Assembly (NCBI GenBank): GCA_023252195.1
Contig: JAHEXI010000005.1
Coordinates: 89,999-153,998, forward strand
Direction: 5' to 3'
Source of the DNA: Pseudonocardiales bacterium
Lineage (GTDB): Bacteria > Actinomycetota > Actinomycetes > Mycobacteriales > Pseudonocardiaceae
DNA length: 64,000 nt
Part shown: positions 9,571 through 39,763 of the stretch, in pieces
Layout: each line of letters starts with the position of its first letter
Numbering within the stretch: the stretch's first letter is position 1
Made by a program: the position numbers and the translations under genes
The notes under the pieces: generated by a model
What the model was told of the DNA's origin: nothing
Seen by the model: the letters and a program-made list of their open reading frames with translations, nothing else
Databases searched by the model: none

Positions 9571-11288
9571 TGGGCACGTTCTGGCGGGGCATCCTCAAAG
9601 GTGCGGTCGGGCCGCAGGACAACGACTCGCGGTTCCTGCTGGACGTGCACTCCCGGGATTTGCCGGGTGAGGCCACCATGGCTCGGTACCGCGACGACGA
9701 CGAGGTGGATCTGGTCATCGTCGGGGCCGGCGCGGGTGGATCGGTGCTGGCCCAGCGGCTGGCCCGGCGCGGGTGGCGGGTGGTGATCATCGAGGCGGGG
9801 CCGTTCTGGCACCCCGACGAGGATTGGGTGTCGGACGAGGCCGGTAGCCACGGGCTGTACTGGACCCAGAAGCGGATCATCGGTGGGGCCGATCCGATCG
9901 AGCTCGGGAAGAACAACTCCGGGCGCGGGGTGGGCGGCTCGATGGTGCACTACGCCGGGTACACGCCACGGTTTCATCCCAGTGACCTGTCCACCTACAC
10001 CGACGACGGCGTGGGCGCGGACTGGCCGATCGCCTATGAGGACCTGCGACCGCACTACGAGCAGGTGGAAGCCGAGCTGCCGGTGGCGGGCCAGGACTGG
10101 CCGTGGGGATACCCGCACCGGTACCCGTTCTCCCCGCACCCGGTGTCCGGTGCCGCCGACAAGCTTCGCGAAGGCGCGCTGCGCTGCGGCATCGAGATGC
10201 GCGTCGGCCCAGTCGGGATCGTCAACGGCACCTTCGGCAACCGCCCGCACTGCATCTACCGCGGCTACTGCCTGCAAGGCTGCAAGGTCAACGCTAAGGC
10301 CAGTCCCTACGTCACGCACCTGCCCGACGCGCTGGCCCACGGCGTGGAAGTCCGCGCGAACTGCATGGCCCTGCAAGTGCAGATCGAGCAGGACTCCGGG
10401 CGAGCCCGCGGCGTCGTGTACGCCACCGAGTCCGACGGCGCACACCGCCTGCAGCGCGCCCAGTACGTCGCAATCGCCGGTTACTCGATCGAGACTCCGC
10501 GGCTGCTGCTGGCCTCGTCGAGCCCTCGTTTTCCGCACGGCCTGGGCAACAATGCCGATCAGGTCGGCCGCTACGTCATGGTGCAAGGCGCCACCCAGAC
10601 CGCGGGGCGGTGGCCTCATGAGCTACGGATGTACAAGGCCCCACCGCCGGAGATCTCCTCAGAGCAGTTTTACGAGACCGACCCCAGCCGTGGTTTCGCC
10701 CGAGGGTTCTCCGTCCAGACGGTGTCCCCGCTGCCGATCGGCTGGGCCGAGCATGTGCTGGCTGATGGGCACTGGGGCCGGGCGCTGCGCGAATACATGC
10801 GTGACTACAACCACTGGGCCACTATCGGGGTGCTCAACGAGCTGCTTGCGCACCCGGACAACCGGATCACCCTGGCCGACGAAACCGACCAGTACGGCCA
10901 GCCCGTCGCCCGGATGGACTACACCCTCAGCGACAACGACAAGGCCAACATCGCCTACTCGACAAAGGTGATCACCGACATCCTGCATGGCGCCGACGCT
11001 CAGGATGTGCTCACCATCCAGCGCTTCGCGCACCTCATCGGCGGCGCGCGGATGGGCGCCTCGCCCGAACACAGCGTCGTCGACGCCAACCAGCGCGTCT
11101 GGGCAGTCCCGAACCTGTTCCTCGCGGACGGGTCGGTGTGTCCCACTCAGGGCGCCGCGAACCCGGCCTTGACGATCATGGCCCTGGCTTCCCGGTTAGC
11201 GCAGCGGATGGCCGATGGCGCCGCCATGGACGACGATCCTGCGGCCCGCGCCGGCCGCACCCGATCAGTTGCAGGGAGCCGACAATGA
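9570..11288 (+). CDS. GMC-family FAD oxidoreductase, gluconate 2-dehydrogenase flavin subunit type
   Basis: Translation from the ATG at 9570, coupled to the upstream stop, gives 572 residues. A longer in-frame extension to 9408 overlaps the upstream gene and is rejected. The FAD Rossmann motif GAGAGG sits at about residues 52-57, with the acidic E at the end of the second strand (IIEAG). The GMC C-terminal signature gives the catalytic His in RFAHLIGG and Asn in AANPALT. A Cys-containing stretch (CIYRGYCLQGC) typical of the gluconate/2-keto-gluconate branch is present. It probably oxidises a sugar acid or alcohol; no cytochrome c gene accompanies it, so the electron acceptor is unknown. Its stop overlaps the HtrA start (ATGA). 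Confidence 0.8.
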   Translation: MGTFWRGILKGAVGPQDNDSRFLLDVHSRDLPGEATMARYRDDDEVDLVIVGAGAGGSVLAQRLARRGWRVVIIEAGPFWHPDEDWVSDEAGSHGLYWTQKRIIGGADPIELGKNNSGRGVGGSMVHYAGYTPRFHPSDLSTYTDDGVGADWPIAYEDLRPHYEQVEAELPVAGQDWPWGYPHRYPFSPHPVSGAADKLREGALRCGIEMRVGPVGIVNGTFGNRPHCIYRGYCLQGCKVNAKASPYVTHLPDALAHGVEVRANCMALQVQIEQDSGRARGVVYATESDGAHRLQRAQYVAIAGYSIETPRLLLASSSPRFPHGLGNNADQVGRYVMVQGATQTAGRWPHELRMYKAPPPEISSEQFYETDPSRGFARGFSVQTVSPLPIGWAEHVLADGHWGRALREYMRDYNHWATIGVLNELLAHPDNRITLADETDQYGQPVARMDYTLSDNDKANIAYSTKVITDILHGADAQDVLTIQRFAHLIGGARMGASPEHSVVDANQRVWAVPNLFLADGSVCPTQGAANPALTIMALASRLAQRMADGAAMDDDPAARAGRTRSVAGSRQ

Positions 11289-12358
11289 ACCTGTCCCGTC
11301 CCGCGCTGGTGACCGCACTGACCGCCGCGGTGGTCGCTCTGGCCGGATGCGCCGCCGCCAGTAGCCCCACTGCTCAGACCGCGTCCAGCACGCCGTCGAT
11401 TCTCGCCAACGCGCCTGCACTGGAGCAGGCCTACGTCAGCGTGGTGGCCAAGGTGCTGCCTTCGGTGGTGCAGATCACCAGCGACCGCGCTCTCGGCTCC
11501 GGCATCGTCTTCGACACCAAGGGCGACATCGTCACCAACGCCCACGTGGTCGGCCAGGCGACCAAGTTCCAAGTGCGCCTGGCCGACAACCCGCAGGCAA
11601 TCCCCGCCACCCTGGTCGGTGCCTACCCACCCGACGACCTCGCTGTCATCAAACTCGATCAACCGCCGTCGACCTTGCACCCGGCGCATTTCGGCGATTC
11701 CTCGAAGCTGCAGGCTGGCGACATCGTGCTGGCCATGGGTAACCCGCTCGGGCTCACCGGCAGCGTCACCGACGGAATCATCTCGTTCACCGGACGTACT
11801 GTCACCGAGCCAGCCGAGGGTTCCTCCTCCCAACCCGCAACGCTGCCCGACATCATCCAGACCAGCGCTGCGATCAATCCGGGCAACAGCGGCGGCGCGC
11901 TGGTCGACCTGGCTGGTGATGTCATCGGAGTTCCTACGCTGGCCGCGCTCGAGCCGCAGTCCGGTGGTCTCGGCGGCGCCGCACCGGGCCTGGGATTCGC
12001 GATCCCCAGCAATATCGTCACCGATATCGCCGGGCAGCTCATCGGCCACAACGGCCACGTGGTCAACTCGCACCGGGCCGAGCTGGGTGTCCGAGTGGTC
12101 ACCGTCGTGGACCCAAATGGCCAGCCTGCTGGCATGGGGGTCGTCAGCGTGGTGCCCTCCGGCCCGGCTGCCGCCGCCGGGATACAGCCGGGCGAGGTGA
12201 TCACCGCGGTGAACAACACTTCAGTGCGCGGTGCCTCCGACCTCGCCCAAACCCTGGCCGGGCTAGATCCGGGTCAGAAGGTCGGGGTCACCTTGACCAC
12301 CGCGCAGGGCGCCACCCGCACTGTCACGGTGACCCTTGGCCAGCTCCCCGGTAGCTGA
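11285..12358 (+). CDS. HtrA/DegP-like serine protease lipoprotein with PDZ domain
   Basis: Starting at ATG 11285, which overlaps the GMC stop, the protein has 357 residues. An N-terminal signal ends in lipobox LAGC (Cys22), predicting an extracytoplasmic lipoprotein. The trypsin-like domain shows the triad His87 (TNAHVV), Asp118 (PDDLAVIKL) and Ser202 (NPGNSGGAL). One C-terminal PDZ domain covers about 265-350. HtrA proteases degrade or refold damaged envelope proteins. Its place at the end of a flavoenzyme operon suggests quality control of that exported or membrane-attached complex (inference). Confidence 0.85.
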   Translation: MNLSRPALVTALTAAVVALAGCAAASSPTAQTASSTPSILANAPALEQAYVSVVAKVLPSVVQITSDRALGSGIVFDTKGDIVTNAHVVGQATKFQVRLADNPQAIPATLVGAYPPDDLAVIKLDQPPSTLHPAHFGDSSKLQAGDIVLAMGNPLGLTGSVTDGIISFTGRTVTEPAEGSSSQPATLPDIIQTSAAINPGNSGGALVDLAGDVIGVPTLAALEPQSGGLGGAAPGLGFAIPSNIVTDIAGQLIGHNGHVVNSHRAELGVRVVTVVDPNGQPAGMGVVSVVPSGPAAAAGIQPGEVITAVNNTSVRGASDLAQTLAGLDPGQKVGVTLTTAQGATRTVTVTLGQLPGS

Positions 12359-27711: not shown

Positions 27712-29991
27712 ATGCGGCTGGTCGAGCGGTACGCGACTCTCGTGGTCCGCGTACGCTGGCTGGTGCTGCCCGTCGTGGGCGCGATCTTGTGGGCGGCCCT
27801 GACCATGCTGCCCAGTGTGGCGGCTACCGGCGGTGGGCTCTCCGGCGTGATCGGCTCTGGTGAACCGGCGATCCAGGCACAGATTGCCGCGGTACAGCGT
27901 TTCGGCCTGCCGCTGCTCAGCGGAACCGCTGTGGTGCAGCGCGATCCCGGCGGCTTGGACCCGCAGGCCGTCCGGCGTGCCGTATTGCGTGCACTTCAGG
28001 TCGACCGGCGCACCCTGGAGACCGGCCGTCAGCCTGGTCAGGACCTGCTGGGGGCACTGCCGCTGATCAATGCCCCGCAGCTGGTACCCGGCGCGCGCGA
28101 GCAGAACACCACCATCGTGACCTACCTGTTCGCCGACCCGACGCTCGGGCTCAGCGGGCAGGACCGGGTGGCTCGAACTTACACGGCGCAGATTGACCAA
28201 CCAGCTGACGCGCTGGTCGGGATCGCCGGGACGATCCAGAACCAGGCCGAGGAGAGGAAGATCCTCGAAAACAGGCTGCCACTGGTGGAGGCCGCCACCT
28301 TGGCGGCGATCGCCCTCATCGTCGGGCTGACCTTCCGCTCGGTGGTCGCACCGTTGGTCACGCTCATCACCGCCGGCATCGGCTACCTGCTGGCTGACCG
28401 GGTCATTGGAGCTCTGGCCGGGGCCGCTGGATTGATTGTTCCGGTGGAGATTGAACCGATCGTGATCGCCCTGATGTTGGGAATCACCACGGACTACAGC
28501 ATCTTCTTCCTATCCGGTGTGCGACGACGGTTGCGGGCCGGACAGACCAACCCAGCGGCCACCATCGAGGCCGTCAGCGAGTACCTCAGCATCGTGTTGA
28601 CGGCTGGTCTGACAGTGGCGGCCGGTGTCGCTGCGCTGGTGGTCGCGAAGTCCACACTATTCCATGCCTTCGGGCCCGGCCTTGCGGTCACCGTGCTCGT
28701 CGGGGTCGCGGTGGCCGTGGTCTTGGTGCCCGCGATGCTGGCCGTACTGGGTCGGTGGGCGTTCTGGCCCTACGGTCTCGCTGCGCAGACACCGTCCGGG
28801 GTGGGACGTGCGGCGATATCTGAACCTATCGACGCCGATGATCCGGCGGCTGCGGCGCCGAGTCGGGTGGTTCGACTACTGCGCCATCGCGGGGTCGCCG
28901 CGGTGGTCGCGGCCTTGGTCATCGCGGTACTCCTGGTGGCCGGCAGTCCCGTGACCGGATTGCGCACCGCGGTATCGCCGGTGGCTGCGCTGCCGGCGGG
29001 TAACCCGGCGCGCGAGGCAGCAGCAGCGGCCTCCGCCGGGTTCACTGCGGGCATCCTGTCCCCGACCGGGATCATCGTGTCGGCCCCTGGCATTACCGAC
29101 CGCCGCGAGGCGCTGACGACACTTGTCAGCCAGCTACATCATCAGCCCGGCGTGGACATCGTGCTCGGTCCGAACATCGCGTTGCCGGTCCAGCGGCTGC
29201 CGGAGCAGTTGGGAGGGGTGTTTCTTGCCCCGGACGGCGGCGCTGCCCGCATGCTCGTCGTGTTCGACAGCGATCCGCTGGGTGCCACCGCCGTAGGGCA
29301 CCTGCACGAGCTGCGTGACGCGATGCCCGCCCTGCTCACCGGAGCTGGCTTGGCTGGGGCGCAGGTGTCCTACATCGGTGATACCGCGATCGGAATGTCG
29401 CTGGTGGATCAAGCCAGCGCCGATTTGGTCCGGGTGGCGGTCGCGGTGGGACTGGTCAACCTGCTGCTGCTCGCGCTGTTCCTCCGCGCCCTCGTCGCCC
29501 CGCTGTACCTACTGGCCAGCAGCGTGCTCGCGGTCGGCGCGGCGCTCGGACTGACCGTGGCGTTGTTCCAGGGGCCGCTCGGGCAGGACGGTCTGGTGTT
29601 CTACATCCCGTTCGCGGCTGGCGTGCTACTCGTTTCCCTTGGCAGCGACTACACGATCTTCAGCGTGGGCTACGTCTGGGATGAGGCCCGCCGTAGACCA
29701 CTGCGCCAAGCGCTTGCGGTGGCGGTGCCGCGCTCGACTCGGGCGATCACTGCCGCGGGAATGACGCTTGCGGCGAGCTTCGCACTGGCCGCGCTCATCC
29801 CGCTGGCGCCGTTTTACGAGCTCGCCTTCGCGATGGCGGCCGGCGTGCTGATCGACGCCTTCGTGGTCCGGTCGGTGCTGGTGCCCGCGCTGATCTCGGT
29901 GGTGGGCCGGGCCAGTGGGTGGCCCGGAAAGAGGTTGGTTAAGCCACCGCTGGGTCTGGGTGGCGAGCGCAATCTGCCACCACCCGGTTAA
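27712..29991 (+). CDS. MMPL-family RND transporter
   Basis: A 759-residue protein with two repeats of one membrane helix, an extracytoplasmic domain and five further helices (12 in all). The family motifs GITTDYSIFFLSG (first half) and LGSDYTIFSVGYVWDEARRR (second half) contain the Asp-Tyr pairs of the proton relay. MmpL proteins export lipids, siderophores or hydrophobic compounds. Its stop overlaps tail-to-tail (TTAA, 29988-29991) with the acyltransferase gene of the Lar/lipid operon. A link to export of that operon's product is possible but not shown. Confidence 0.85.
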   Translation: MRLVERYATLVVRVRWLVLPVVGAILWAALTMLPSVAATGGGLSGVIGSGEPAIQAQIAAVQRFGLPLLSGTAVVQRDPGGLDPQAVRRAVLRALQVDRRTLETGRQPGQDLLGALPLINAPQLVPGAREQNTTIVTYLFADPTLGLSGQDRVARTYTAQIDQPADALVGIAGTIQNQAEERKILENRLPLVEAATLAAIALIVGLTFRSVVAPLVTLITAGIGYLLADRVIGALAGAAGLIVPVEIEPIVIALMLGITTDYSIFFLSGVRRRLRAGQTNPAATIEAVSEYLSIVLTAGLTVAAGVAALVVAKSTLFHAFGPGLAVTVLVGVAVAVVLVPAMLAVLGRWAFWPYGLAAQTPSGVGRAAISEPIDADDPAAAAPSRVVRLLRHRGVAAVVAALVIAVLLVAGSPVTGLRTAVSPVAALPAGNPAREAAAAASAGFTAGILSPTGIIVSAPGITDRREALTTLVSQLHHQPGVDIVLGPNIALPVQRLPEQLGGVFLAPDGGAARMLVVFDSDPLGATAVGHLHELRDAMPALLTGAGLAGAQVSYIGDTAIGMSLVDQASADLVRVAVAVGLVNLLLLALFLRALVAPLYLLASSVLAVGAALGLTVALFQGPLGQDGLVFYIPFAAGVLLVSLGSDYTIFSVGYVWDEARRRPLRQALAVAVPRSTRAITAAGMTLAASFALAALIPLAPFYELAFAMAAGVLIDAFVVRSVLVPALISVVGRASGWPGKRLVKPPLGLGGERNLPPPG

Positions 29992-30947
29992 TCCGTCCAG
30001 ACCTGGCGGGGACCGTCATCGGCGGCGGGGCGGGTGGCCTCCCAGACTCGGCGCCACGGGGCCACCTCGTTGTCCTGGGGGAGCGGCTGGCCGGACGCGG
30101 TGCTGGGCAGCGCGCTGCGCGATCCGGTAGGCAGCGCCAGCGAATCGTCGGCTGCCGCTCGCAGGGCGCCATACCAGCCAAGATCGTCTTCGGCCCACAG
30201 GGTGGCCACCGCGCGCACCAGCCTGATGCGGAATTCGGGCACGGTCTCATCTGCTTCGATGCGCAGCGGTCGGCCGATCCGGACGGAGACCCGCGGTCGG
30301 CCCGGCTGCGGCCAGCGCCGACCGCGGGGCATCGCGGCGAACGTGCCACGCAGCGCGATAGGCACCGCCGGTATCCCCTTCATCGAGCACAGTTGCGCGG
30401 CACCCAGCTTGAACCCGGTGAGCCAGCCGTCCACCGTGCGGCTGCCCTCGGGGTAGAGCAACAGGCTCCAGCCGCCGTCGACCAACTCGGCGGCCAGGCT
30501 GCGGCCCCGTCGTGCGCGCCGCTCCACAGGGAAGGCGTTGAACAGCAACGTGGTGGCTGCGGCGACGGTCCGAGAGTCGAAGAAGTAGTCAGCGGCGGCC
30601 CCGACGGCGAGCTTCTTGGTGATCCGCGGTGGCAGCGCGCCCAGGATCAACGGGGTATCCAGGTGGCTGGAGTGGTTGGCGACGAAGACTGCCGGGCCAC
30701 GGACGCTGTCGAGATATTCGCGGCCGCGCACCACCGGCCGGGTCTGGCTCCAGATCACCGGCTTGAGCATCGCCTGCTGCAGGGCGCTGCGCAGCGCCCC
30801 GGCCGCGGCAGTCCGGGCCCACGCGGTGGGGAAGTCGTCGCCATTGTCGGGCGGTTCCCAGCACTGCGCCGACCGGGGAACCCGCGACCGGCCCCGCCAG
30901 TCCCGGCCGTGGCGCAGCAGCCGAAGATCGTCGCGTAGGCCACTCAT
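29988..30947 (-). CDS. PlsC-like 1-acylglycerol-3-phosphate acyltransferase
   Basis: A 319-residue acyltransferase of the PlsC superfamily. The catalytic NHSSHLD (NHx4D box) is at about residues 90-96. Motif III YPEGSRTVDG and motif IV GIPAVPIALRGT follow. Such enzymes acylate lysophosphatidate or other hydroxylated lipids. It is the last gene of the six-gene operon, overlapping the LarA-like stop by ATGA. A final O-acylation of the pathway product is therefore plausible (inference). One hydrophobic segment near residue 120 may associate with the membrane. Confidence 0.8.
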   Translation of the reverse strand: MSGLRDDLRLLRHGRDWRGRSRVPRSAQCWEPPDNGDDFPTAWARTAAAGALRSALQQAMLKPVIWSQTRPVVRGREYLDSVRGPAVFVANHSSHLDTPLILGALPPRITKKLAVGAAADYFFDSRTVAAATTLLFNAFPVERRARRGRSLAAELVDGGWSLLLYPEGSRTVDGWLTGFKLGAAQLCSMKGIPAVPIALRGTFAAMPRGRRWPQPGRPRVSVRIGRPLRIEADETVPEFRIRLVRAVATLWAEDDLGWYGALRAAADDSLALPTGSRSALPSTASGQPLPQDNEVAPWRRVWEATRPAADDGPRQVWTD

Positions 30948-32518
30948 CGCACGTCTGCCAGCACCATCGGCGGGGCGTGTAAGTAGCTGATCTCCGGGTT
31001 GGCGCCGACGGTGTCTCGAGCCAGCTCGAGCGCGTCAGCCAAACTGGACGCGGCCCGGAATCCCAGCCGCGCTGTGGTCGACCGGTCACCCCCGACGAAG
31101 ATCACGTCGGCCAGATGCTGCATCGCGTGCGCGCCCCAATACCACATGTAGAACGGGTGTACACCATGGTAGGCGTAACTGGTTCGGTACAAATGGGTGT
31201 ACCACGGATCGGTAGCAAACTGCTTCTCGTATTTGGTTTCCAGCATCACCGGGTCGGTGGTCTCGGCGAGCAGATCGTAGAAATCGATGTAGCTCGGGTG
31301 GTGCACTGGATGGAACTCGTGCGGCATCGGGTGGTAGAAGATCGCCACTCCGCCTTCACGCACGATCGGCTTGCCGCGGTAGAGATTGAAGAAGTAACCG
31401 AGGCCCAGGGACATCACCAGGATCGGGTTCATGATCGAGTTCACGTTGTACGGGCAGATGTAGGGCAAGCCGAAAATCGCCACGTCGGCCTGCCCTTGCA
31501 CCTCGGTGAGCTGCTGGCGGTGCACCGCGGCCAGGGTGTGCGGGTGCACCTGGCTCGGTGCCCCGGCGTGCACCCCGGTGACACCGTACGGCGCCTCGGT
31601 GGCCTGCCAGATCCGCCGCCGCAGCTTGCCGGTGGCCAGGTCGTTGCTCCGCTTGACCGCCAGGTAACTGGCTTGGTCGGTGAGGTTCCACTCCCACTCG
31701 CGACGCGTGAGGAAACGCAGCGCCGTGGGGAACGGTTCGTTGTTCAGTGTTGTCTCGATGGTGAATACCGGGACCTGCCCGCCGATGACGTCGGCCATCC
31801 GGTCGTAGGACTGGTGCATCGCCGAATGCGGGGGATCGTTGAACGAGCGCGAATGCCGCAATGTGTGCACATTGTGGTGGTGGCGCAGGCTGGCATAGCT
31901 GGCCAATCCCACCGCCACCGACTTCGAGCCGCCGTTCATCGCGGTGAGGGTGATGTTGACGTAGACGATCAAATCACTTTCGGCGGCCCGGCGGTTGATC
32001 TCCACGTCCTCGCCATGCGGGGTGGTACCCAGATGCGCGAGATCGTCCGGATCCTCGGCGTCGTGATTGCGCAGGTGATCCGGGTGGAAGGCGCGGAACA
32101 CCCGCTCGCCGACGGTGCGCTTGAGTTCCGCCGGAGTCATCCGCCGGTGCAGCGAGTTCGCGGCGATGAGTTCGACGTCGTCCACGCCGGCGGCGGCGGC
32201 CAGCTCCAGAACCTGTTCGATCACCCGCTGCCGGACGTCCGGTGTACGCATCTGTGGCAGCGGCAGGGACAGATCGTCGAAGACGATCGTCAGCCGCATC
32301 CCGCGCCGGAGCAACTGCGGCAGCGGGTCGCTGCCGTGTGGATGCAGCAGGGCGTGGTGGATCGCGCCCTCGAGGTCGACGATGCCCGGCAGCGATTCCG
32401 GCGGGTAGATCACTCGACTGCCCAGAGGCAGGCGCTCCAGCCGGAACCCCTCGCCCTCGTGCATCAGCAGCGGCGGAGTCCGCTCGTCGACGTCGAGCAT
32501 GAAACCTGGTCTGCCCAC
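30944..32518 (-). CDS. LarA-like nickel-pincer (DUF2088) protein
   Basis: A 524-residue protein whose N-terminal half is a LarA/DUF2088 domain: VFDDLSLPLP at about 79-88, NSLHRRMTPAEL at 121-132, and NGGSKSVAVGLAS at 195-207. Against lactate racemase, Lys199 corresponds to the Lys that tethers the nickel-pincer nucleotide. His215 lies 16 residues later, as does the nickel-ligating His, and His124 matches the first catalytic His. The second catalytic His, 10 residues before the Lys, is replaced (Ile189 or a neighbouring Asn/Thr). The C-terminal half (about 250-524) is longer than in LarA and rich in His, Tyr and Trp. It may be an epimerase or isomerase of a bulky hydroxylated substrate. Start GTG 32518; ATG 32500 is an alternative. 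Confidence 0.75.
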   Translation of the reverse strand: MGRPGFMLDVDERTPPLLMHEGEGFRLERLPLGSRVIYPPESLPGIVDLEGAIHHALLHPHGSDPLPQLLRRGMRLTIVFDDLSLPLPQMRTPDVRQRVIEQVLELAAAAGVDDVELIAANSLHRRMTPAELKRTVGERVFRAFHPDHLRNHDAEDPDDLAHLGTTPHGEDVEINRRAAESDLIVYVNITLTAMNGGSKSVAVGLASYASLRHHHNVHTLRHSRSFNDPPHSAMHQSYDRMADVIGGQVPVFTIETTLNNEPFPTALRFLTRREWEWNLTDQASYLAVKRSNDLATGKLRRRIWQATEAPYGVTGVHAGAPSQVHPHTLAAVHRQQLTEVQGQADVAIFGLPYICPYNVNSIMNPILVMSLGLGYFFNLYRGKPIVREGGVAIFYHPMPHEFHPVHHPSYIDFYDLLAETTDPVMLETKYEKQFATDPWYTHLYRTSYAYHGVHPFYMWYWGAHAMQHLADVIFVGGDRSTTARLGFRAASSLADALELARDTVGANPEISYLHAPPMVLADVR

Positions 32519-32581
32519 ACTCTCACCTGCTCCTGTCCGCCAGCGCTGCGCTTATCACTGACTCTTAACGCTGACTGCCTC

Positions 32582-33793
32582 TTATCCTCGACCGGGGGCG
32601 AAGACGACCTTGATGGTGCCCAGCCGGCCGGCCGCAGCCGCGTGATCGAGCGCGTCGCGCCACTGTTCCAGCGGATACTTCGTGTCAACGTAACCGTTCA
32701 ACGCCGCTGATGCCGCCAGGGCGATGGCCGCCGGGAAATCACCCTCACTCGGCTCTTCCCCTGTCGCCGAGGCGTAGGCCCCGACGAGGTGCAGCTCGCG
32801 GTACCACAGTGGGGTGAGATCCACCCCACCCGTGGGCATTCCGGAGGCCACCACCGTGCCCCCAGCCCGCAGGGACCGCAGCGCCGTGTTCAAACCCGAG
32901 GTACCCCCGGTGCACTCGAAGGCCAGGTCCATCCCGCCGAGCAGGTAGCCGTCGCCGAGTTCGGGCTCGACCAGCAGCGCTCCGGTGCTGCGGCGCAACG
33001 TCCGTGCGGTGCTGTCGGTGCCGATGACCTGGGTGGCGCCCAGCTCGCGAGCTCGGTCGGCTTGGTGGCGGTGTTTGGCGATCACGTGAATCTCGCCGGC
33101 CGCGGTGAGCTTGCGCAGCGCGAGCAGCGTGAGCAGGCCCACCGTGCCCGCGCCGATCACCAGCACCGAGGCGCCGGGACTGACCGGTACCCGGCGCACC
33201 GCGTGTACCGCGCAGGCCAATGGCTCCACCAGGACGGCGATCTCGTCGGGCAGCGAGTCCGGCACCGGGTGCAGTTGGCTGGCATGGGCGATCATCCGGC
33301 GGCTCCAGCCACCTCCGGTGTCGGCGCAGAAGCCGGTCTGTAGCCCAGCAGCCAGCCGTCCGGTGGTGATGTGGTCGCAACGACTGGTATGCCCGGCGAG
33401 GCAAGCCCGGCAGGACGCCACGCCGCGCGCCGCGCATCGCAGTACCGGATCGATCACTACCCGGCTGCCCCGGGGTAGCCCGGGCAGCTCGTCGAGGGTG
33501 CGCCCGAGCACCTCATGGCCGGGGACGAAGGGCATCGAGGTCAACGGCCCGAGGTAGGGCGACGACCGGCCGGTGAGCAGGCCGAGATCCGACCCGCAGA
33601 TTCCGGACAGCACCGGCTCGATCCGGCTCCAGGACTCGTCGGCCGGGACCGGGTCGGCCTGCTCGACCAGCCGTAGCGGCGCGACATTGCTGGCCAGCAT
33701 GCTGGCGAGCCGCCCGCCCGCGCGACTGCCACTGACCGCGCGGGCGGCGAAGTAGCGTCCGGCGGAGCGGTGATACTGCAGCGCGAGGCTCAC
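32582..33793 (-). CDS. Zinc-dependent alcohol dehydrogenase (MDR family)
   Basis: A 403-residue medium-chain dehydrogenase. Catalytic zinc ligands are Cys66 (GICGSD) and His93/Glu94 (PGHEVLG). Four structural-zinc cysteines are at 120, 128, 131 and 139. The NAD(P) motif is VIGAGTVGLL near 215. It would interconvert an alcohol and an aldehyde or ketone. The GTG at 33793 overlaps the upstream stop (GTGA), coupling it to the acyl-reductase fusion, whose aldehyde or alcohol product could be its substrate. It lies 63 bp ahead of the LarA-like gene. Confidence 0.85.
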   Translation of the reverse strand: MSLALQYHRSAGRYFAARAVSGSRAGGRLASMLASNVAPLRLVEQADPVPADESWSRIEPVLSGICGSDLGLLTGRSSPYLGPLTSMPFVPGHEVLGRTLDELPGLPRGSRVVIDPVLRCAARGVASCRACLAGHTSRCDHITTGRLAAGLQTGFCADTGGGWSRRMIAHASQLHPVPDSLPDEIAVLVEPLACAVHAVRRVPVSPGASVLVIGAGTVGLLTLLALRKLTAAGEIHVIAKHRHQADRARELGATQVIGTDSTARTLRRSTGALLVEPELGDGYLLGGMDLAFECTGGTSGLNTALRSLRAGGTVVASGMPTGGVDLTPLWYRELHLVGAYASATGEEPSEGDFPAAIALAASAALNGYVDTKYPLEQWRDALDHAAAAGRLGTIKVVFAPGRG

Positions 33794-36069
33794 CGCGGCG
33801 CTGCTCTGCAGTCGGCTCCGGTGACGTCGAGCAGCACCTCGAGCAGCCCACCGGTGTGGGCACCCCAGCGGTGCACGACCCAGCGGCGCCGTCGGGCGTG
33901 CCGGAACAGCTGGGAGTCCGGGTTGACTACTTGCGGATGCCCGACGGCCTCAAGCAACGGGCGGTCGGAGTAGCTGTCGGCGTAGGCGTAAGACCGGTCC
34001 AGGTGCAGACCGTTCGCCTGGGCATAGTGCCGCAGCCACGCCGCGCGCGCCTCGTCGACCAGAGGAGGCGTTTCGAGGAACCCGGTGAGTACACCGTCTT
34101 TGGCGTGCATCCGGCTGGCCACCACCTCGTCGAAAAGCACTGACAGCGGCTCCACATGCAGGTCGACCGCACCGGTGATCAGGACGGTTCGGTGCCCGGC
34201 TGCGCGGTGGCGCCGGATCTGGCGAGTTGCTTCGGGCATCACCCGGTGCAGCAGCGCGTCGCCGAGAACGTCGGTGACCAGCGCACGCAGCTCGTCGACC
34301 CGCGCGCCGGCGTAGCGGCGCAGGAAGGCTCGCAGCAGCTCGCCGCGGTCGTGGCGCTCCGCCGAGAGATACTGGGGGGCGCACCGGGCCAGGTCGGCCA
34401 GCTCGCGTAGCCAGCCGGAGCGGGGCATCGTCGCCAACCGGGCCCACAGGTATGACTCGACGACGTTGGAGTTCACGATGGTGCCCTCCAGGTCGAACAC
34501 CGCGGCCACGTCGGTGCGCTCGGGCAGTGACCGCGGCGATGGTGACCGGACCTTTGAAGAAGATCCCCGCCGCTGCCCGGCCCGCCGGACCGTGGCCGTG
34601 ATCGATGGGCAGTGCACGTCCTGCAGGTAGGCCCGCCAGTCGATGACGGTGGGGTCGAAGCCGTGCTCAAGCGCCCGCTGTGGCGGCAGTGCCGCATGCA
34701 GCTCCCGCAGCCGGCTGTCGTCGTAGATCACCTCGGCGCGGGCGTAGACGCCATAGAGGTCAGCGTATTCGCGCAGCTGCACCAATTCCTGCTGCTGGCG
34801 GCCAAGACTGGTCAGCCAATCCTGGGAGCGCTTCGACGGTGGCAGCGCCAACAGGGCCCGTTCTGCTAACGCCGCGGCCCGTTCCCCGGCGCGCAGCCTC
34901 AGCTCTACCTGCTGGCTGCCGGGAAACCGCCAGGTGGGTGGCGCGATATGGCCGCGATCACCGTCGGGAATGGGGTGGTTGTCGAAGTACGCCCGGCACA
35001 GCACGTACATGTTCTGGAAGGTCAGCGGGTTAGTGGCGCCGGAGCTGACGTGTAAGTAGGCCGGCCCGGTGGCGGGCGGCCGGGCGGCGGTCGCGAGGAT
35101 CGCGTTGATCACCAGATCGACCGGGATGACGTCGAGCACGGAGTCGGGCAGCCCAGGGAATTCGCGCAGTAGCCCTCTGCCAAAGGAGATGATCAACGGA
35201 TCGGCCATCTTGAAGCCGTCGATCCAGCCCGGGTAAGGGTGCCGCAGCGCGCTTTCCACGATAGCGGGACGGACCACCGACAGCGGTCGACCCGGCTGTG
35301 CCCACAACGTTTCGGCGACTCGCTCACCCAGGGCTTTGGTGAACGTATAGACGTCCGGCCAGCCCAGACTCCGGGCCCGGGTGCGGCCGTAGTCCACCAG
35401 CCGGCGAGTGACCCACTCGGTGCGCAGCCGTTCGGCGTCGGTGGCGGTGGACTGTGGGCCGGCTTTGGCGTGCTGCTCGCCTGCTTGGGCCAGCGCGCGG
35501 CGGAGCACCTCCGGTCGCCGGGAGTCCCGCTCCACGTCGAGTCGGGCGGCGAGCGCCATTTCCAGCTCGAGGCGCCAGTCCACCCCGTGGTCCAGTGCCA
35601 CCTCAGCCACGACGCCCTTGCGGGTGCCCGCGACGTAGGCGGTGGAGATGTGCACGATATGCGGTGAGCCGGTCAGTGCCTGATAGAGGGCCGCCACACC
35701 CGAGACGTTGGTGCGGAAAGCTTCGTCGACCGGGGGGTCGAAGGACACCGTCGAGGCACCGTGGATCACGACGTCGAGATCGGCGGGCAGGGTGACCGAA
35801 CCGAGGTCGCCCTCGATGACGGTGACCCGCTCGCGCACCAGCCGCGTCAATTTCTCCGCGCCGAGGCGCTCACTCAACGGGCGGAACACGTTCTTGCGCA
35901 GCAACGCGCTGAGCCGGTCGGTCGCGGTGCGCTCGCCCCGGGGTCGGATCAGTACCGAGACATGGGTGTCCGGGTAGCTGGACAGCAGCCGCTCCAAAGT
36001 CGCCTGCCCCAAGAACCCGGTCGCGCCGGTGAGCAGCACGTGAGATCCGGCGAGCTCATCGGCACTCAT
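33790..36069 (-). CDS. Fatty acyl reductase-like SDR fused to a HAD-IB phosphatase-like domain
   Basis: A 759-residue two-domain protein. Residues 1 to about 400 form an extended SDR of the fatty-acyl-CoA/thioester-reductase type (TGATGFLG at 14-21, HISTAYVAGT, and Tyr241/Lys245 in VYTFTK), followed by a helical 'sterile'-like region to about 500. The C-terminal HAD-IB domain starts near 520: nucleophile Asp526 in FDLEGTI, Thr in LITGA, and the DSYSD acidic motif. The usual second Asp of motif I is Glu528, so phosphatase chemistry may be altered. The reductase would turn an acyl thioester into an aldehyde or alcohol. It overlaps LarC (ATGA) and the alcohol dehydrogenase (GTGA). Confidence 0.75.
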   Translation of the reverse strand: MSADELAGSHVLLTGATGFLGQATLERLLSSYPDTHVSVLIRPRGERTATDRLSALLRKNVFRPLSERLGAEKLTRLVRERVTVIEGDLGSVTLPADLDVVIHGASTVSFDPPVDEAFRTNVSGVAALYQALTGSPHIVHISTAYVAGTRKGVVAEVALDHGVDWRLELEMALAARLDVERDSRRPEVLRRALAQAGEQHAKAGPQSTATDAERLRTEWVTRRLVDYGRTRARSLGWPDVYTFTKALGERVAETLWAQPGRPLSVVRPAIVESALRHPYPGWIDGFKMADPLIISFGRGLLREFPGLPDSVLDVIPVDLVINAILATAARPPATGPAYLHVSSGATNPLTFQNMYVLCRAYFDNHPIPDGDRGHIAPPTWRFPGSQQVELRLRAGERAAALAERALLALPPSKRSQDWLTSLGRQQQELVQLREYADLYGVYARAEVIYDDSRLRELHAALPPQRALEHGFDPTVIDWRAYLQDVHCPSITATVRRAGQRRGSSSKVRSPSPRSLPERTDVAAVFDLEGTIVNSNVVESYLWARLATMPRSGWLRELADLARCAPQYLSAERHDRGELLRAFLRRYAGARVDELRALVTDVLGDALLHRVMPEATRQIRRHRAAGHRTVLITGAVDLHVEPLSVLFDEVVASRMHAKDGVLTGFLETPPLVDEARAAWLRHYAQANGLHLDRSYAYADSYSDRPLLEAVGHPQVVNPDSQLFRHARRRRWVVHRWGAHTGGLLEVLLDVTGADCRAAPR

Positions 36070-37304
36070 GGCGCTACCACGCCAGCCGGACGGCTGTGAT
36101 GGTAAGCCGACAGGGCAGCCTCACACACCCGGCGCACCGGCCAACCGAGTAGCTCGGCGACGCGCTCGGCGTCGGCGAGTTCGGGCTTGACAGTTTGCCC
36201 TCCCGGTCCGGCGGCAACCTTGATGTTGATCTCCTGCTCGGCCCCAGGCGGTCCCACCGGCACCGGGACGGTGGTCCGCGGCAGCGTAGTGCGTCGCCAG
36301 GCAGTCCACCGTACGCCCAGCGTGGTGCTGTGCCGGAACACCGCATCCACCACCGCCGGACGGATCTGCTCGGTGCACAGCGCGGTGAGCACCTGCCCAG
36401 GCCTGCCGTGTCGACCAACGGTGGCGGTCGTCCAGCAGTCCCACGCTCCGGCCGCCCGGACCGCGAGCAGCACCCCCGGCCACAGCTCCGGATCGAGATC
36501 ATCGACGGTGGTCTCCACCACGGTGACCGGCTCGGCGGGGCCAGGCGCCGACCCCGGTTCGGTGCGGCGACCGATCACCAGCCGGGTGATGTTCGGTCGC
36601 TCCGGGGTGTCCAACCGTCCGGCGCCGCTACCCACCGCGTCCACCGTCATCGGTGGCAACGGCCCGGGTGTGGCCAGGATCGCGACCAGGGCCGCCCCGG
36701 TGGGCGTGCTGCGTTCCCCGGCGAGGTCCCCGCCGGTCAGCGACAGCCCACAGTCAGCCACGATCTGCAGGACGGCGGGTGCTGGAACCGGGATCGTGCC
36801 GTGCGCGCTGCGCACCGTCCCGCTGCCGGCCGCGAGCGCCGAGCACGCCACCAGGGCGCCGTCGGCGAGCAAGCCGAGCTGTTCAGCCGCGACGGCGGTG
36901 CCGACCACATCGGCGAGAGCGTCGGCGGCCCCCACCTCATGGAAATGCACCAACTCAGCGGGCATGCCGTGCACCGCGGCCTCCGCATCCGCGAGCAGCC
37001 GGAATGTGTCGGCGGCTACCCGGGCGGCTGCTGCGCCCAGCGGGGCCTGCTCGATGGCGGCGAGCACCTCGGCCAATCCCCGGGTGGGCTGGTCAGCGGC
37101 CGGAGTGACGACCACAGTGCGTGCGCAGCGCAGCCCGCAGCGCCGGGTCTGCGAGATTGTGACGTCCAGATCGGGCACCCCGAGCGATGTCACCGCGGCC
37201 CGTACCGCAGCAAGGTCAGCGCCGGCGTCGAGCAGCGCACCGAGCAGCATGTCACCGGCCACGCCGGCGGTGCAGTCCAGATACGCCGCCCTGGGCTCAG
37301 CCAC
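36066..37304 (-). CDS. larC: LarC, nickel insertion enzyme of nickel-pincer cofactor synthesis
   Basis: A 412-residue single-chain LarC (DUF111). Features are AAYLDCTAGVAGDMLLGALLDAG at the N-terminus, ELVHFHEVGAADALADVVG with its metal-binding His/Glu cluster, GERSTPTGAAL, and the VVETTVDDLDPEL start of the C-terminal domain. LarC is a CTP-dependent cyclometallase that inserts nickel into pyridinium-3,5-bisthiocarboxylic acid mononucleotide. Start GTG 37304 overlaps the larB stop by 8 bp. Longer in-frame readings run antisense-like through larB and are rejected. In Lactobacillus plantarum larC is split by a frameshift; here it is continuous. Confidence 0.9.
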   Translation of the reverse strand: MAEPRAAYLDCTAGVAGDMLLGALLDAGADLAAVRAAVTSLGVPDLDVTISQTRRCGLRCARTVVVTPAADQPTRGLAEVLAAIEQAPLGAAAARVAADTFRLLADAEAAVHGMPAELVHFHEVGAADALADVVGTAVAAEQLGLLADGALVACSALAAGSGTVRSAHGTIPVPAPAVLQIVADCGLSLTGGDLAGERSTPTGAALVAILATPGPLPPMTVDAVGSGAGRLDTPERPNITRLVIGRRTEPGSAPGPAEPVTVVETTVDDLDPELWPGVLLAVRAAGAWDCWTTATVGRHGRPGQVLTALCTEQIRPAVVDAVFRHSTTLGVRWTAWRRTTLPRTTVPVPVGPPGAEQEINIKVAAGPGGQTVKPELADAERVAELLGWPVRRVCEAALSAYHHSRPAGVVAP

Positions 37305-37995
37305 CGTGCACCCTCGCAACGATCTTGACCGCGTGCGCCGCGGCGCCGAAGCCGTTGTCGATGTTGACCACCGACAGCCCCGGTGCGCAGGACGCGAGCA
37401 TGGTCGCCGCGGCGACGTGTCCGCTCGCACTGACTCCGTAGCCCACACTGGTGGGTACCCCGACCACGGGTGCTCGGATCAGCCCGGTTACCACCCCCGG
37501 CAGGGTGCCCTCCATTCCGGCGATGGCGATCACGCAGTCGGCCTCGGCCAGCTCGTCGAGGTGTGCGAGCAGCCTGTGCAGTCCGGCGATCCCGACATCG
37601 GCGATCAACCGGTGTCCGGCGCCGAGCGCCTGCAGAGTGGCGATCGCTTCGCGCGCGACCGGCAGGTCCGAGGTACCTCCGGTGAGCACGGCGACGAACC
37701 CGCGGGCCGGCGGCAGCGCACCGACGATCACGGTGCGCCCGGTCGGGTCAGCCACGACCGGCTCGGCCGCAAACCAGCTCGGTGCCCGGTGCAGCACACC
37801 GTCGGGGCACCGGGTGGCCAGCGCTGGGAACCCAGGTTCGCAGCTGCGCTGTGCGGCGAGCAGCCGCAGCGTCTGCTCCTCGGTCTTGCCCTCGGCGAAG
37901 ATGACTTCGGGCACGGCGGTGCGTCGCCGGCGATCGGAATCCAGCCGGGCGATACCGCTGACGTCTCGCGATGAGTGCGGTGCTGAGTCGACCAC
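37297..37995 (-). CDS. larB: LarB, nicotinate dinucleotide carboxylase/hydrolase
   Basis: About 232 residues from GTG 37995. The family pattern is clear: RTAVPEVIFAEGKT near the N-terminus and the AIR-carboxylase-like VLTGGTSDLPVAREA. Then come VGIAGLHRL, AGMEGTLPGVV and VGVPTSVGYG, ending NIDNGFGAA. LarB carboxylates and hydrolyses nicotinic acid adenine dinucleotide, the first step of nickel-pincer synthesis. Its N-terminus is short against typical LarB (about 250 residues). A longer frame exists but runs across the larE start on the other strand. The exact start is uncertain, as no strong ribosome-binding site is seen. Confidence 0.85.
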   Translation of the reverse strand: MVDSAPHSSRDVSGIARLDSDRRRRTAVPEVIFAEGKTEEQTLRLLAAQRSCEPGFPALATRCPDGVLHRAPSWFAAEPVVADPTGRTVIVGALPPARGFVAVLTGGTSDLPVAREAIATLQALGAGHRLIADVGIAGLHRLLAHLDELAEADCVIAIAGMEGTLPGVVTGLIRAPVVGVPTSVGYGVSASGHVAAATMLASCAPGLSVVNIDNGFGAAAHAVKIVARVHGG

Positions 37996-38052
37996 GGTGC
38001 CGACTATCTCACGCAAGCCGGTGCCACTTCGGGCATGCGAGGATGGTCGACC

Positions 38053-38889
38053 ATGCACACTGCGGATTCCGTCGTCACTACCTCTGCCGCGGCGGCGCTG
38101 CTCGACCGGCTGGGACGCTTGGACGGGCTGGTGGTGGCCTTCTCCGGCGGGGTTGACTCCGCGGTGGTGCTGGCTGCAGCCGTCCGGGCGATCGGCGCCG
38201 ATGCCGTACTTGCCGTCATTGCGGACTCGCCCAGCCTGGCCCGCGCGGAGCTGGCAGCCGCCCGGCACGTCGCCGGACAGATCGGGGCCCGATTGCTGGT
38301 GCTGGCTACCGACGAGCACGTCGATCCGGGTTACCGGGCCAATGCCGGCGATCGCTGCTACTTCTGCAAGCGAACCGTGCTCGCGGCGGTGTGCGGTGTC
38401 GCGCAGCGCAGTGGTTTCGCCCACGTCGCTACCGGCACGCACCTCGATGACCGCCGTGCCGCGCACCGCCCGGGCTTGCGAGCGGCTGCTGAGCTCGGGG
38501 TGTGCGAACCGCTCGCCGAGGTGGGCGCTACCAAGGAAACCGTGCGCTTGCTGGCGACGCACTGGAACCTGTCGGTGCGCGACAAGCCGAGCACGCCGTG
38601 CCTGGCCTCCCGGATCGCCGTCAGGGTCCCGGTGACCGTCGAGCGGCTGGCGTTGGTCGAGCGGGCTGAGCTGGCTGCCCGCCGGTACCTCGCGGAGAAT
38701 CGCGTTGCGGTCCGCGACCTGCGGGTCCGGCTGCTGGGCCGCGCCGGATTCCGGGTAGAGCTCGATCAGGACGCGCTGGACGGCGTCTGTCTGCCGGCAC
38801 GGGAGGCGCTGCTGGCCCGAGTCGCGGAAGCGGGTCTCGGTGGGCAGGGCGATCTGGCGCGTTACCACTCAGGCTCACTCAGCGGTTGA
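38053..38889 (+). CDS. larE: LarE, ATP-dependent sacrificial sulfur transferase
   Basis: A 278-residue PP-loop enzyme with SGGVDS at 31-36. Cys183 lies in STPCLASRI, the position of the Cys that LarE of L. plantarum sacrifices to give its sulfur. Another pair, Cys102/Cys105 (RCYFC), lies in a family-conserved segment. LarE thiolates the LarB product before LarC inserts nickel. It is divergent from larB with about 57 bp between starts, so one control region probably serves both directions. ATG 38053 follows gagga; ATG 38035 is an alternative. Confidence 0.88.
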   Translation: MHTADSVVTTSAAAALLDRLGRLDGLVVAFSGGVDSAVVLAAAVRAIGADAVLAVIADSPSLARAELAAARHVAGQIGARLLVLATDEHVDPGYRANAGDRCYFCKRTVLAAVCGVAQRSGFAHVATGTHLDDRRAAHRPGLRAAAELGVCEPLAEVGATKETVRLLATHWNLSVRDKPSTPCLASRIAVRVPVTVERLALVERAELAARRYLAENRVAVRDLRVRLLGRAGFRVELDQDALDGVCLPAREALLARVAEAGLGGQGDLARYHSGSLSG

Positions 38890-39763
38890 GCAACGGACAG
38901 CGCAGCAGAGACCACAGCATGGACCCGGCTCGCTGGACCGGACCGGTGGCGCGGCCAGCGGCGTCGGGTCCCACCCCGTAGCCGGCAGCAGCGCGGCTGA
39001 CCAGGTGCATGCCGGCCAAACCGGGCAGCCGGTCGATCTTCTCGTCGATCTGCCTGATCATCCGGGTCCCGTCGGTGCCGCCCATCAGATAGCGCAACAA
39101 GAACTCTGTCTCTGCGCCGGGCATGATCCCTGACCCTACCGGCGTCCAGGCCATCCTCAGGACGGCTCGGGTCAGCAGCCGGGCGGCGCGCGACCGCTGC
39201 AGCCGCTCCCGCGCCTGGCTGGCGTAGAAAGCCACGTGCCGGGTCTCCTGCCGCTGGATGCGCCCGACGAGCTTGATCAGCTCAGGATGGTCGGTCTGGG
39301 CGAGCAACCGGCTATAGCCCGCGTAGGTGGACCATTCGTTGATCGCGCCGAAGGTCATGTGCACAGCGATGAAGTCATCGCCGATCAAATTAGCTGCGAC
39401 TGCCTGGTAGATCGGAGACAGCCGGTCACCGCGGCCCTGGGCCAGCCGGATGCGGCGGATCCGATCGGGGCCGACGTTCCGACCATGCGCGGCCAGCACC
39501 TTGTCCAGCACCTCGCCGTGCCAGAACTCCTCATAGACCCACATGGTGAGAAACGTCGTGATCTCCGGGTCCTGGTGCGATGGCGTGACCAGCAAGTCCC
39601 GCAGGTAGCAGATGGTGTGGCTCTCCACGTCGGACATGTACTGCACCGCCCGCAGGGCGGCTTCGGGTAGCGGTGTGCGCTGGAAGGCGGAGTAGTCGAC
39701 GTCGTCGTCGACCACCCGGCGGGCAGTGGTGCTGTAGTTCACAATGTCGAAGGACATAGGCAC
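38879..39763 (-). CDS. Ferritin-like diiron oxygenase/desaturase-type protein
   Basis: A 294-residue helical protein with the four-helix diiron pattern: Glu47 (DVESHT), Glu79-x2-His82 (EEFWH), Glu143 (NEWS) and Glu173-x2-His176 (QETRH). This matches acyl-ACP desaturase and AurF-like enzymes that activate oxygen. The C-terminal hundred residues are basic and hydrophobic. Substrate is unknown. It converges on larE with an 11-bp overlap. Its proximity to acyl reductase and acyltransferase genes suggests a lipid substrate (inference). The alternative is a diiron N-oxygenase. Confidence 0.7.
   Translation of the reverse strand: MPMSFDIVNYSTTARRVVDDDVDYSAFQRTPLPEAALRAVQYMSDVESHTICYLRDLLVTPSHQDPEITTFLTMWVYEEFWHGEVLDKVLAAHGRNVGPDRIRRIRLAQGRGDRLSPIYQAVAANLIGDDFIAVHMTFGAINEWSTYAGYSRLLAQTDHPELIKLVGRIQRQETRHVAFYASQARERLQRSRAARLLTRAVLRMAWTPVGSGIMPGAETEFLLRYLMGGTDGTRMIRQIDEKIDRLPGLAGMHLVSRAAAGYGVGPDAAGRATGPVQRAGSMLWSLLRCPLLNR

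Follow-up and report, generated by a model that had tools for sequence, protein, structure and literature searches.

A LarA homologue was found next to genes for the synthesis of the nickel-pincer nucleotide (NPN) cofactor in a gene cluster of a Pseudonocardiales bacterium (contig JAHEXI010000005.1, positions 89,999 to 153,998 of the forward strand; this 64,000-nucleotide stretch is referred to as the window). Together with genes for a fusion of a fatty acyl-CoA reductase with a HAD-IB phosphatase (FAR-HAD), a Zn-dependent polyol/ketose dehydrogenase (ADH), and a PlsC-like acyltransferase, the larA homologue forms a conserved cassette, FAR-HAD>ADH>LarA>PlsC. We propose that the cassette may encode an NPN-dependent ether-lipid pathway, in which LarA replaces alkyl-dihydroxyacetone phosphate (alkyl-DHAP) synthase (ADPS), the FAD-dependent enzyme of classic ether-lipid synthesis. 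We regard this reading as a nearly even call, falling just short of balance. Its two parts differ in strength: an ether lipid is the rather probable product of the cassette, and the idea that LarA itself carries out the ADPS-equivalent step is a little more tentative than the reading as a whole.

The replacement of ADPS was deduced from a class-level sample of 196 genomes. Strong LarA matches were present in 33 of these (39 before the removal of six genomes, G014, G074, G123, G141, G170, and G190, whose LarA is ~28–31% identical), LarC in 54, and FAR-HAD (E 1e-60) in 49. LarA proteins outside of a Frankia-like genus described below are called NPN-competent; they were found in 28 genomes, 27 of which also contain FAR-HAD. 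A FAR-type ADPS, 64–100% identical to the query, was detected in none of the 27 FAR-HAD genomes with NPN-competent LarA, and in all 22 FAR-HAD genomes without it. The FAR-linked ADPS matches the Dictyostelium ADPS with an E value of 2e-128. At E 1e-60, the ADPS search returned 99 of the 196 genomes. The 64–100% type was present in 24, namely six genomes of the Frankia-like genus and each of the 18 that have FAR-HAD and lack a strong LarA match; the remaining 75 contained 32–42% identical paralogues alone. Treating all ADPS-like proteins as equivalent was rejected; the 32–42% group was considered apart, and is kept as a caveat (see below) rather than dismissed.

The DNA surrounding FAR-HAD was inspected in 16 of the 18 genomes without strong LarA (G171 and G179 were left out). 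ADPS was present in 14 of the 16 stretches, a short-chain dehydrogenase/reductase (SDR) and a PlsC-like gene in 15 each, and a diiron protein gene in five, with LarA and ADH found in none. In one stretch (L125), the contig ends within the PlsC-like gene; in another (L127, genome G190), FAR-HAD is isolated, and the genes for ADPS, SDR, and PlsC form a group elsewhere (L170). Both types occur within a single family, f19: two of its 22 genomes have LarA, 18 have ADPS, none has both, and the two genomes that lack both have completeness values of 75% and 81%. The dehydrogenases follow the same division. In a set of 22 hand-picked genomes, ADH (E 1e-50) was found in 14 of 14 LarA-type genomes (three of them Frankia-like) and in none of the eight ADPS-type genomes, and relatives of the ADPS-operon SDR (E 1e-40) were 51–100% identical in the eight ADPS types and 41–54% identical or absent in the other 14. 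The simplest reading of these sequence comparisons is that LarA stands for ADPS and that ADH stands for SDR.

Conservation of the cassette was evaluated in the best 80 of at least 579 confirmed related stretches (61–97% identical; by label, 79 are from actinobacteria and one, L072, is from Acidobacteria). FAR-HAD was matched in 75 of these loci, ADH in 78, and PlsC in 76. Nine of the 11 missing-gene cases fall at the end of a contig; in the other two, there would have been space for the absent gene (PlsC in L026, ADH in L029). All four genes were present in 70 loci, and since their order and strand were identical in 70 out of 70, the arrangement is not due to chance. The next most common neighbor family was seen in 18 loci (a crude frame caller was used here). 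A first-pass annotation of the window had taken consistent linkage in actinobacterial genomes as the criterion by which six genes, i.e., the four above plus larB and larC, would form a pathway. The linkage of FAR-HAD, ADH, and PlsC to the larA homologue was borne out across Actinomycetota, and by this criterion the four genes make up a pathway. The same could not be said of the NPN synthesis genes: larB, larC, or larE was linked in 26 of the 80 loci (all three in 24), and larB and larC were thus rejected as obligatory operon members. In a phylum-level sample of 276 genomes, LarA (E 1e-50) was found in 72, FAR-HAD (E 1e-60) in 62, and both in 60; the two genomes with FAR-HAD only, G237 and G403, are split into 210 and 370 contigs. 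Cassettes were seen in Kribbella, Nocardioides, Actinomadura, and uncultured actinobacteria.

Rubrobacteraceae provide a connection to published lipid data. Family f48 of our sample corresponds to Rubrobacteraceae, since a contig of one member (G247) matches a Rubrobacter radiotolerans plasmid without a mismatch over 9,000 bases; a contig of another (G267) is 100% identical to the R. indicoceani plasmid NZ_CP031116. The R. radiotolerans and R. indicoceani operons both read PlsY>FAR-HAD>ADH>LarA. PlsY, a glycerol-3-phosphate acyltransferase (PF02660 in the three proteins tested), precedes FAR-HAD in all seven f48 loci that have FAR-HAD (eight were read). LarA was found in 22 f48 genomes, and the only genome with ADPS at E 1e-140, G309, has no LarA match. 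Ether-linked core lipids are reported to make up ~46% of the core lipids in Rubrobacterales, an order-level figure (PMC10821996, citing Sinninghe Damste 2023). The exchange of LarA and ADPS, together with the occurrence of the cassette in Rubrobacter, a member of an ether-lipid-making order, points to ether-lipid synthesis. The first-pass annotation had suggested a hydroxylated pathway intermediate (lipid, alcohol, or polyol) as the LarA substrate; this was right in outline, and is sharpened by these two observations. Two further LarA genes were noted in this family. At L144 (positions 8904–11758), an SDR 46% identical to the ADPS-operon SDR closely follows LarA, with no ADH nearby, and FAR-HAD is located on another contig of the same genome; the R. 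indicoceani plasmid (NZ_CP031116.1) carries a gene annotated as larA (lactate racemase), besides the chromosomal cassette.

The history of the exchange was examined using a FAR-HAD tree of 104 rows (a quick method with SH-aLRT support only; rows shorter than 650 residues, L001, and L082 were left out). ADPS-type genes are nested inside LarA-type genes, and three changes are needed: one in f19 genera together with f33 (the nearest LarA-type row is Haloactinopolyspora), one in the Frankia-like genus (nearest row Parafrankia), and one in G190, which forms a long branch. LarA proteins of the Frankia-like genus (L108, L110, L111, L128, L129, and L130; four distinct genes in six rows) are only ~50% identical. 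In all six rows Lys199, the predicted site of NPN attachment, is replaced by Gly or Ala, and His214 is replaced by Val, with the C-terminal His396, His451, and His454 retained. The search for LarC was negative in all five LarA-bearing Frankia-like genomes. FAR-HAD, ADH, and PlsC are still present in the three Frankia-like neighborhoods read. The genus may thus represent a switch caught halfway, with the NPN site and LarC apparently lost and ADPS present.

The same observations bear on the strongest alternative, which we consider rather unlikely, namely that the cassette makes some other fatty-alcohol-derived lipid (alkyl, 1,2-diol, or glycerate-type), and that ADPS and LarA pathways are alternative sinks for the alcohol produced by FAR. 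LarA would then epimerize or oxidize a hydroxyl, ADH would carry out an oxidation or reduction, and PlsC would acylate. Such a scheme agrees with the placement of ADH in the polyol/ketose dehydrogenase group, with the breadth of the acyltransferase family to which PlsC belongs, and with the activities shown for LarA proteins in PMC7583248 and PMC12611868, which are 2-hydroxyacid isomerizations. It does not, however, account well for the exclusion of NPN-competent LarA and ADPS, which has no exception among the 49 class-level genomes with FAR-HAD, or for the Frankia-like genus, which keeps ADH, PlsC, and FAR when the NPN site is lost and ADPS is present. The ether lipids of Rubrobacterales (PMC10821996) and the PlsY gene of the Rubrobacteraceae operon, which ties the cassette to glycerol-3-phosphate, also argue against it.

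The properties of the LarA protein were analyzed next to those of characterized relatives. In the window's genome (a 4.74 Mb assembly, 97.8% complete, in 48 contigs, with the window on contig 7), one Lar_N protein was found and no canonical LarA elsewhere, so the LarA homologue, proposed as the cofactor's client in the first-pass annotation, is the sole visible one. Its match to NF052592 covers residues 7–524 and passes the family cut-off. Single-histidine LarA proteins 9q2u and 9q3j are the closest solved relatives by sequence alignment; an AlphaFold model (mean pLDDT 91) has the LarA fold, with 9q3k as the best match (TM-scores 0.76/0.83). With residue roles taken from PMC12611868, alignment and spacing indicate that three functional residues are retained: His124 as the first catalytic His, Lys199 for the attachment of NPN, and His215 as the ligand of nickel. 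His215 lies 16 residues past Lys199, which mirrors H200 after K184 in the Lp enzyme. In the LarA alignment (rows shorter than 450 residues, as well as L001 and L082, which are the window itself, were left out), all 107 main rows (97 distinct) have His124, His215, and Lys199, and Lys199 is also present in 19 of 19 more distant ones. At the genome level, NPN-competent LarA was seen to contain Lys199 in 27 of 28 class genomes, and in 26 of 27 when only those with FAR-HAD are counted; LarA fragments of the remaining genome, G113, do not span this position.

Two other residues that define lactate racemases are absent, a point that the first-pass annotation overlooked. There is no His in residues 184–199 of the window LarA, where the second catalytic His (H174 in Lp) would be expected, and the consensus across this segment is YVNINLVAMDGGxK. 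The position of R75 in Lp, occupied by an Arg/Lys that binds the NPN phosphate and the substrate carboxylate, corresponds to Leu85; over the 107 rows this column contains Leu in 83, Ile in 23, and Val in one. A classification as canonical lactate or 2-hydroxyacid racemase was rejected on these grounds: lacking both residues, the window LarA is unlikely to be a 2-hydroxyacid racemase of the ordinary kind. In PMC7583248, a Frankia LarAH14 protein is reported as inactive in seven 2-hydroxyacid assays, and the authors suggest that groups without His174 or Lys298 equivalents may catalyze another hydride-mediated reaction. A search of plasmids for LarA relatives returned eight records, none covering 80%, of which seven are annotated as nickel-dependent lactate racemase and one is unannotated.

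The active site also allows one to judge the idea that LarA is an ordinary NPN-dependent racemase or epimerase that inverts a pathway intermediate, for example, at the sn-2 center of a glycerolipid. The LarA fold, the NPN lysine, and one catalytic His are all in place for such a role. Yet with the second catalytic His missing and neither Arg nor Lys at the carboxylate/NPN-phosphate position, with the related Asn-type LarA Sp having shown no lactate racemization (PMC12611868), and with the replacing ADPS pathway having no counterpart of an epimerase step, we find this role improbable. A role of LarA mainly as a substrate-binding or scaffold protein of a lipid complex, with NPN chemistry secondary, could explain why a Lys-less LarA with His396, His451, and His454 persists in an intact cassette of the Frankia-like lineage, a retention that hints at some role without the cofactor, but as a general explanation it is very improbable given Lys199 in all 126 other aligned rows, LarC in 27 of the 28 class genomes with NPN-competent LarA, and the coincidence of lysine loss with ADPS presence.

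The ether-lipid pathway that we favor would proceed as follows. FAR would supply a long-chain alcohol or aldehyde by reduction of an acyl thioester. LarA, with NPN as hydride acceptor, would oxidize the C2 hydroxyl of glycerol-phosphate or acyl-glycerol-phosphate, which would activate C1, and the alkyl chain would then be attached at C1, the step done by ADPS in other lineages. The Zn-polyol dehydrogenase would reduce a 2-keto alkyl-DHAP-like intermediate in place of the SDR of ADPS operons, PlsC would acylate the sn-2 position, and the HAD domain would remove phosphate from the product or an intermediate. The transient oxidation and later reduction on one face is our own proposal; a single acid/base His fits such chemistry better than it fits inversion. 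All steps beyond the designation of an ether-lipid pathway are what we infer from the predicted enzyme activities. A still more specific version, in which LarAH14/15 proteins are nickel-pincer alkyl-ether synthases that take the C2 hydride transiently while a fatty alcohol replaces the C1 acyl of acyl-glycerol-phosphate, is doubtful.

Several points weigh against an NPN-dependent ether-lipid pathway with LarA in place of ADPS. We know of no precedent for NPN forming a C–O bond, and in the window's organism the ether-lipid product is a prediction. The LarA/ADPS exclusion among the 49 FAR-HAD genomes (Fisher 2e-14) was calculated with phylogeny ignored, and independent switches number only three. 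LarC is not diagnostic, as it was also found, without this LarA, in 27 of the 196 class genomes. Of the 28 genomes with NPN-competent LarA, 22 have ADPS-like paralogues, 32–42% identical; all of the low-identity paralogues read retain the HHH motif, and the best solved-structure match of one of them (L162) is the Dictyostelium ADPS (E 2.5e-87). Given these paralogues, some LarA genomes might have another ADPS. At E 1e-60, six of the 28 genomes, including that of the window (G000), had no ADPS-like match, and no SDR or PlsC relatives were found within the few kb fetched around eight paralogue loci (L161–L167 and L171). Seven of these loci (L162–L167 and L171) represent a clade of FAD proteins that resemble ADPS (~35–39% identical) and are widespread in actinobacteria. 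One LarA-type genome, G139, has a 54% identical SDR relative ~9 kb from LarA. In the two ADPS loci read from the Frankia-like genus (L168 and L169), ADPS stands by itself, apart from the cassette, and Lys-less LarA is retained in ADPS-bearing genomes.

Other difficulties concern the cassette itself. Rubrobacteraceae loci had no linked PlsC match, and the absence of ADPS from f48 genomes with LarA was established at E 1e-140, a threshold that does not cover weaker ADPS matches. Twelve of the 72 LarA-containing genomes of the phylum sample have LarA only, 11 of them with a LarA just 38–43% identical, and no FAR-HAD was found in the five LarA-only neighborhoods read beyond a weak HAD-type match in L151. 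In L157, there is no ADH between FAR-HAD and LarA. The HAD part of FAR-HAD is a weak point, in that its motif I is variable, the window included: the window protein has DLEGT, with Glu replacing the second Asp, and among the 104 FAR-HAD rows the Glu form was found in 22 (DLEGT in 19, DMEGT in three) and Asp forms in 59, with 23 rows giving no match to the search pattern. As a separate observation, L148–L152 define a LarA branch, 38–42% identical, that keeps the NPN lysine, occurs in other Actinomycetota families, and has no FAR-HAD nearby.

The genes of the window locus are listed in the table. As the first-pass annotation had stated, larB, larC, the acyl-reductase/HAD fusion, the Zn-dependent dehydrogenase, LarA, and PlsC genes are consecutive on one strand (by Pfam and NCBIfam matches), with overlapping stop and start codons at four of five junctions, and larE is divergent from larB. 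The overlaps are 8 nt for larB/larC (with the likely larC start) and 4 nt each for larC/FAR-HAD, FAR-HAD/ADH, and LarA/PlsC; ADH and LarA genes are separated by 63 nt. The six genes constitute a single minus-strand operon.

Table. Genes of the LarA locus and its flanks; positions are those of the window.
Gene product	Position	Strand	Supporting match
MMPL transporter, convergent neighbor	27712..29991	+	PF03176
PlsC-like 1-acylglycerol-3-phosphate acyltransferase	29988..30947	-	PF01553, E 4e-15
LarA homologue, LarAH14/15/16 family	30944..32518	-	NF052592, 891.6 bits (cut-off 740)
ADH, Zn-dependent polyol/ketose dehydrogenase	32582..33793	-	PF00107/PF08240
FAR-HAD, fatty acyl-CoA reductase (NAD_binding_4) and HAD-IB phosphatase fusion	33790..36069	-	PF07993, E 1.6e-47; PF12710, E 2.9e-33
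LarC, nickel insertion	36066..37304	-	PF01969, E 1.4e-107
LarB, NPN synthesis	37297..37995	-	NF033503, 226 bits (cut-off 175)
LarE, sulfur transferase of NPN synthesis	38035..38889	+	TIGR00268, 235 bits (cut-off 150)
Ferritin-like diiron protein, possible accessory	38879..39763	-	acyl-ACP desaturase-like fold (model)

Start codons were picked among candidates: GTG 37995 is the likely start of larB, GTG 37304, which overlaps the larB end, is the most likely start of larC, and larE may start at 38035 or 38053. LarC also matches TIGR00299 (169.5 bits, cut-off 90) and NF052512 (96 bits, cut-off 50). The nearest solved structure of FAR-HAD is the fatty acyl-CoA reductase 7eoz (E 2.2e-45); those of ADH are a ketose reductase and idonate and sorbitol dehydrogenases, and the PlsC structure 5kym was the sole match of the PlsC homologue at E 0.01 (E 1.8e-13). 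The diiron protein had no family match in a Pfam search. Its model (pLDDT 79) resembles acyl-ACP desaturases and R2lox, with stearoyl-ACP desaturase as the best Foldseek match (E 9e-4), and the protein could function in desaturation or oxidation of the alkyl chain. Diiron homologues were found in eight of the 80 LarA-type loci and in five of the 16 ADPS-type stretches (L116 and L123–L126), with two copies in L123 and L126. The MMPL transporter was matched in one of the 80 related loci and is probably outside of the unit.

No account of a link between LarA and ether lipids, or of the LarA/FAR-HAD/ADH/PlsC gene set, was found in a search of open-licence literature, with supplementary tables outside its scope; a printed gene-context table for groups 14–16 may be present in supplementary material. 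The LarAH14/15/16 proteins are already known by name; their proposed placement in an ether-lipid pathway as an ADPS substitute was not found in this literature. LarA groups without the second catalytic His have so far had no known function in the accessible parts of PMC12611868 and PMC7583248, and one such group can now be given a concrete candidate pathway. The cassette is a candidate answer to how ether lipids are made in actinobacteria such as Rubrobacter, i.e., outside the lipid divide, and ether lipids are predicted in Kribbella, Nocardioides, Actinomadura, and uncultured actinobacteria that bear it. If LarA does replace ADPS, this would be a new job for a rare cofactor and a new route to ether lipids. 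If, more specifically, LarAH14/15 proteins are alkyl-ether synthases, they would add a bacterial ether-lipid route to those that depend on ADPS, ElbD, Ger, and PlsA/PlsR, and would provide an NPN enzyme that forms a bond rather than inverts a stereocenter. The LarA route would then be old in Actinomycetota, with three or more exchanges for ADPS in its history.

Among described LarA proteins, the window protein belongs by score to LarAH14/15/16 (groups 14–16 of Desguin 2020), group 14 of which is represented by a Frankia protein in PMC7583248. As described in the accessible sources, this family has a name without a substrate, and neither a link to FAR-HAD, ADH, and PlsC nor a replacement of ADPS is mentioned. 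LarA Sp and LarA Bw (9q2u, 9q3j, and 9q3k; PMC12611868) share with it one catalytic His, the NPN lysine, and the lack of a His174 equivalent. They are, however, only ~22–23% identical to the window LarA, have an Asn, His306-Tyr307, and Lys76 in place of its Pro356-Tyr357 and Leu85, and are encoded next to sugar enzymes (PMC12611868), whereas the neighbors of the window LarA are lipid enzymes.

Myxobacterial ether-lipid operons combine FAR, HAD, acyltransferase, and SDR, and in one case AGPS (PMC9131029). The ADPS (AGPS) pathway, including Myxococcus MXAN_1676-1674 and the elb operons, shares FAR, HAD, acyltransferase, and reductase parts with the cassette. The actinobacterial FAR-HAD/ADPS/SDR clusters resemble the myxobacterial AGPS/FAR/SDR operon (PMC9131029), and their FAR-HAD and PlsC-like genes are homologous to those of the LarA cassette. 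Ger and PlsA-PlsR provide another bacterial way to ether (vinyl-ether) lipids, via ester reduction by a different protein family. Compared with an ADPS-type operon, the window contains FAR-HAD, PlsC, and Zn-ADH rather than SDR, and no ADPS match was found in its genome at E 1e-60; the places of ADPS and SDR appear to be taken by LarA with NPN and by Zn-ADH.

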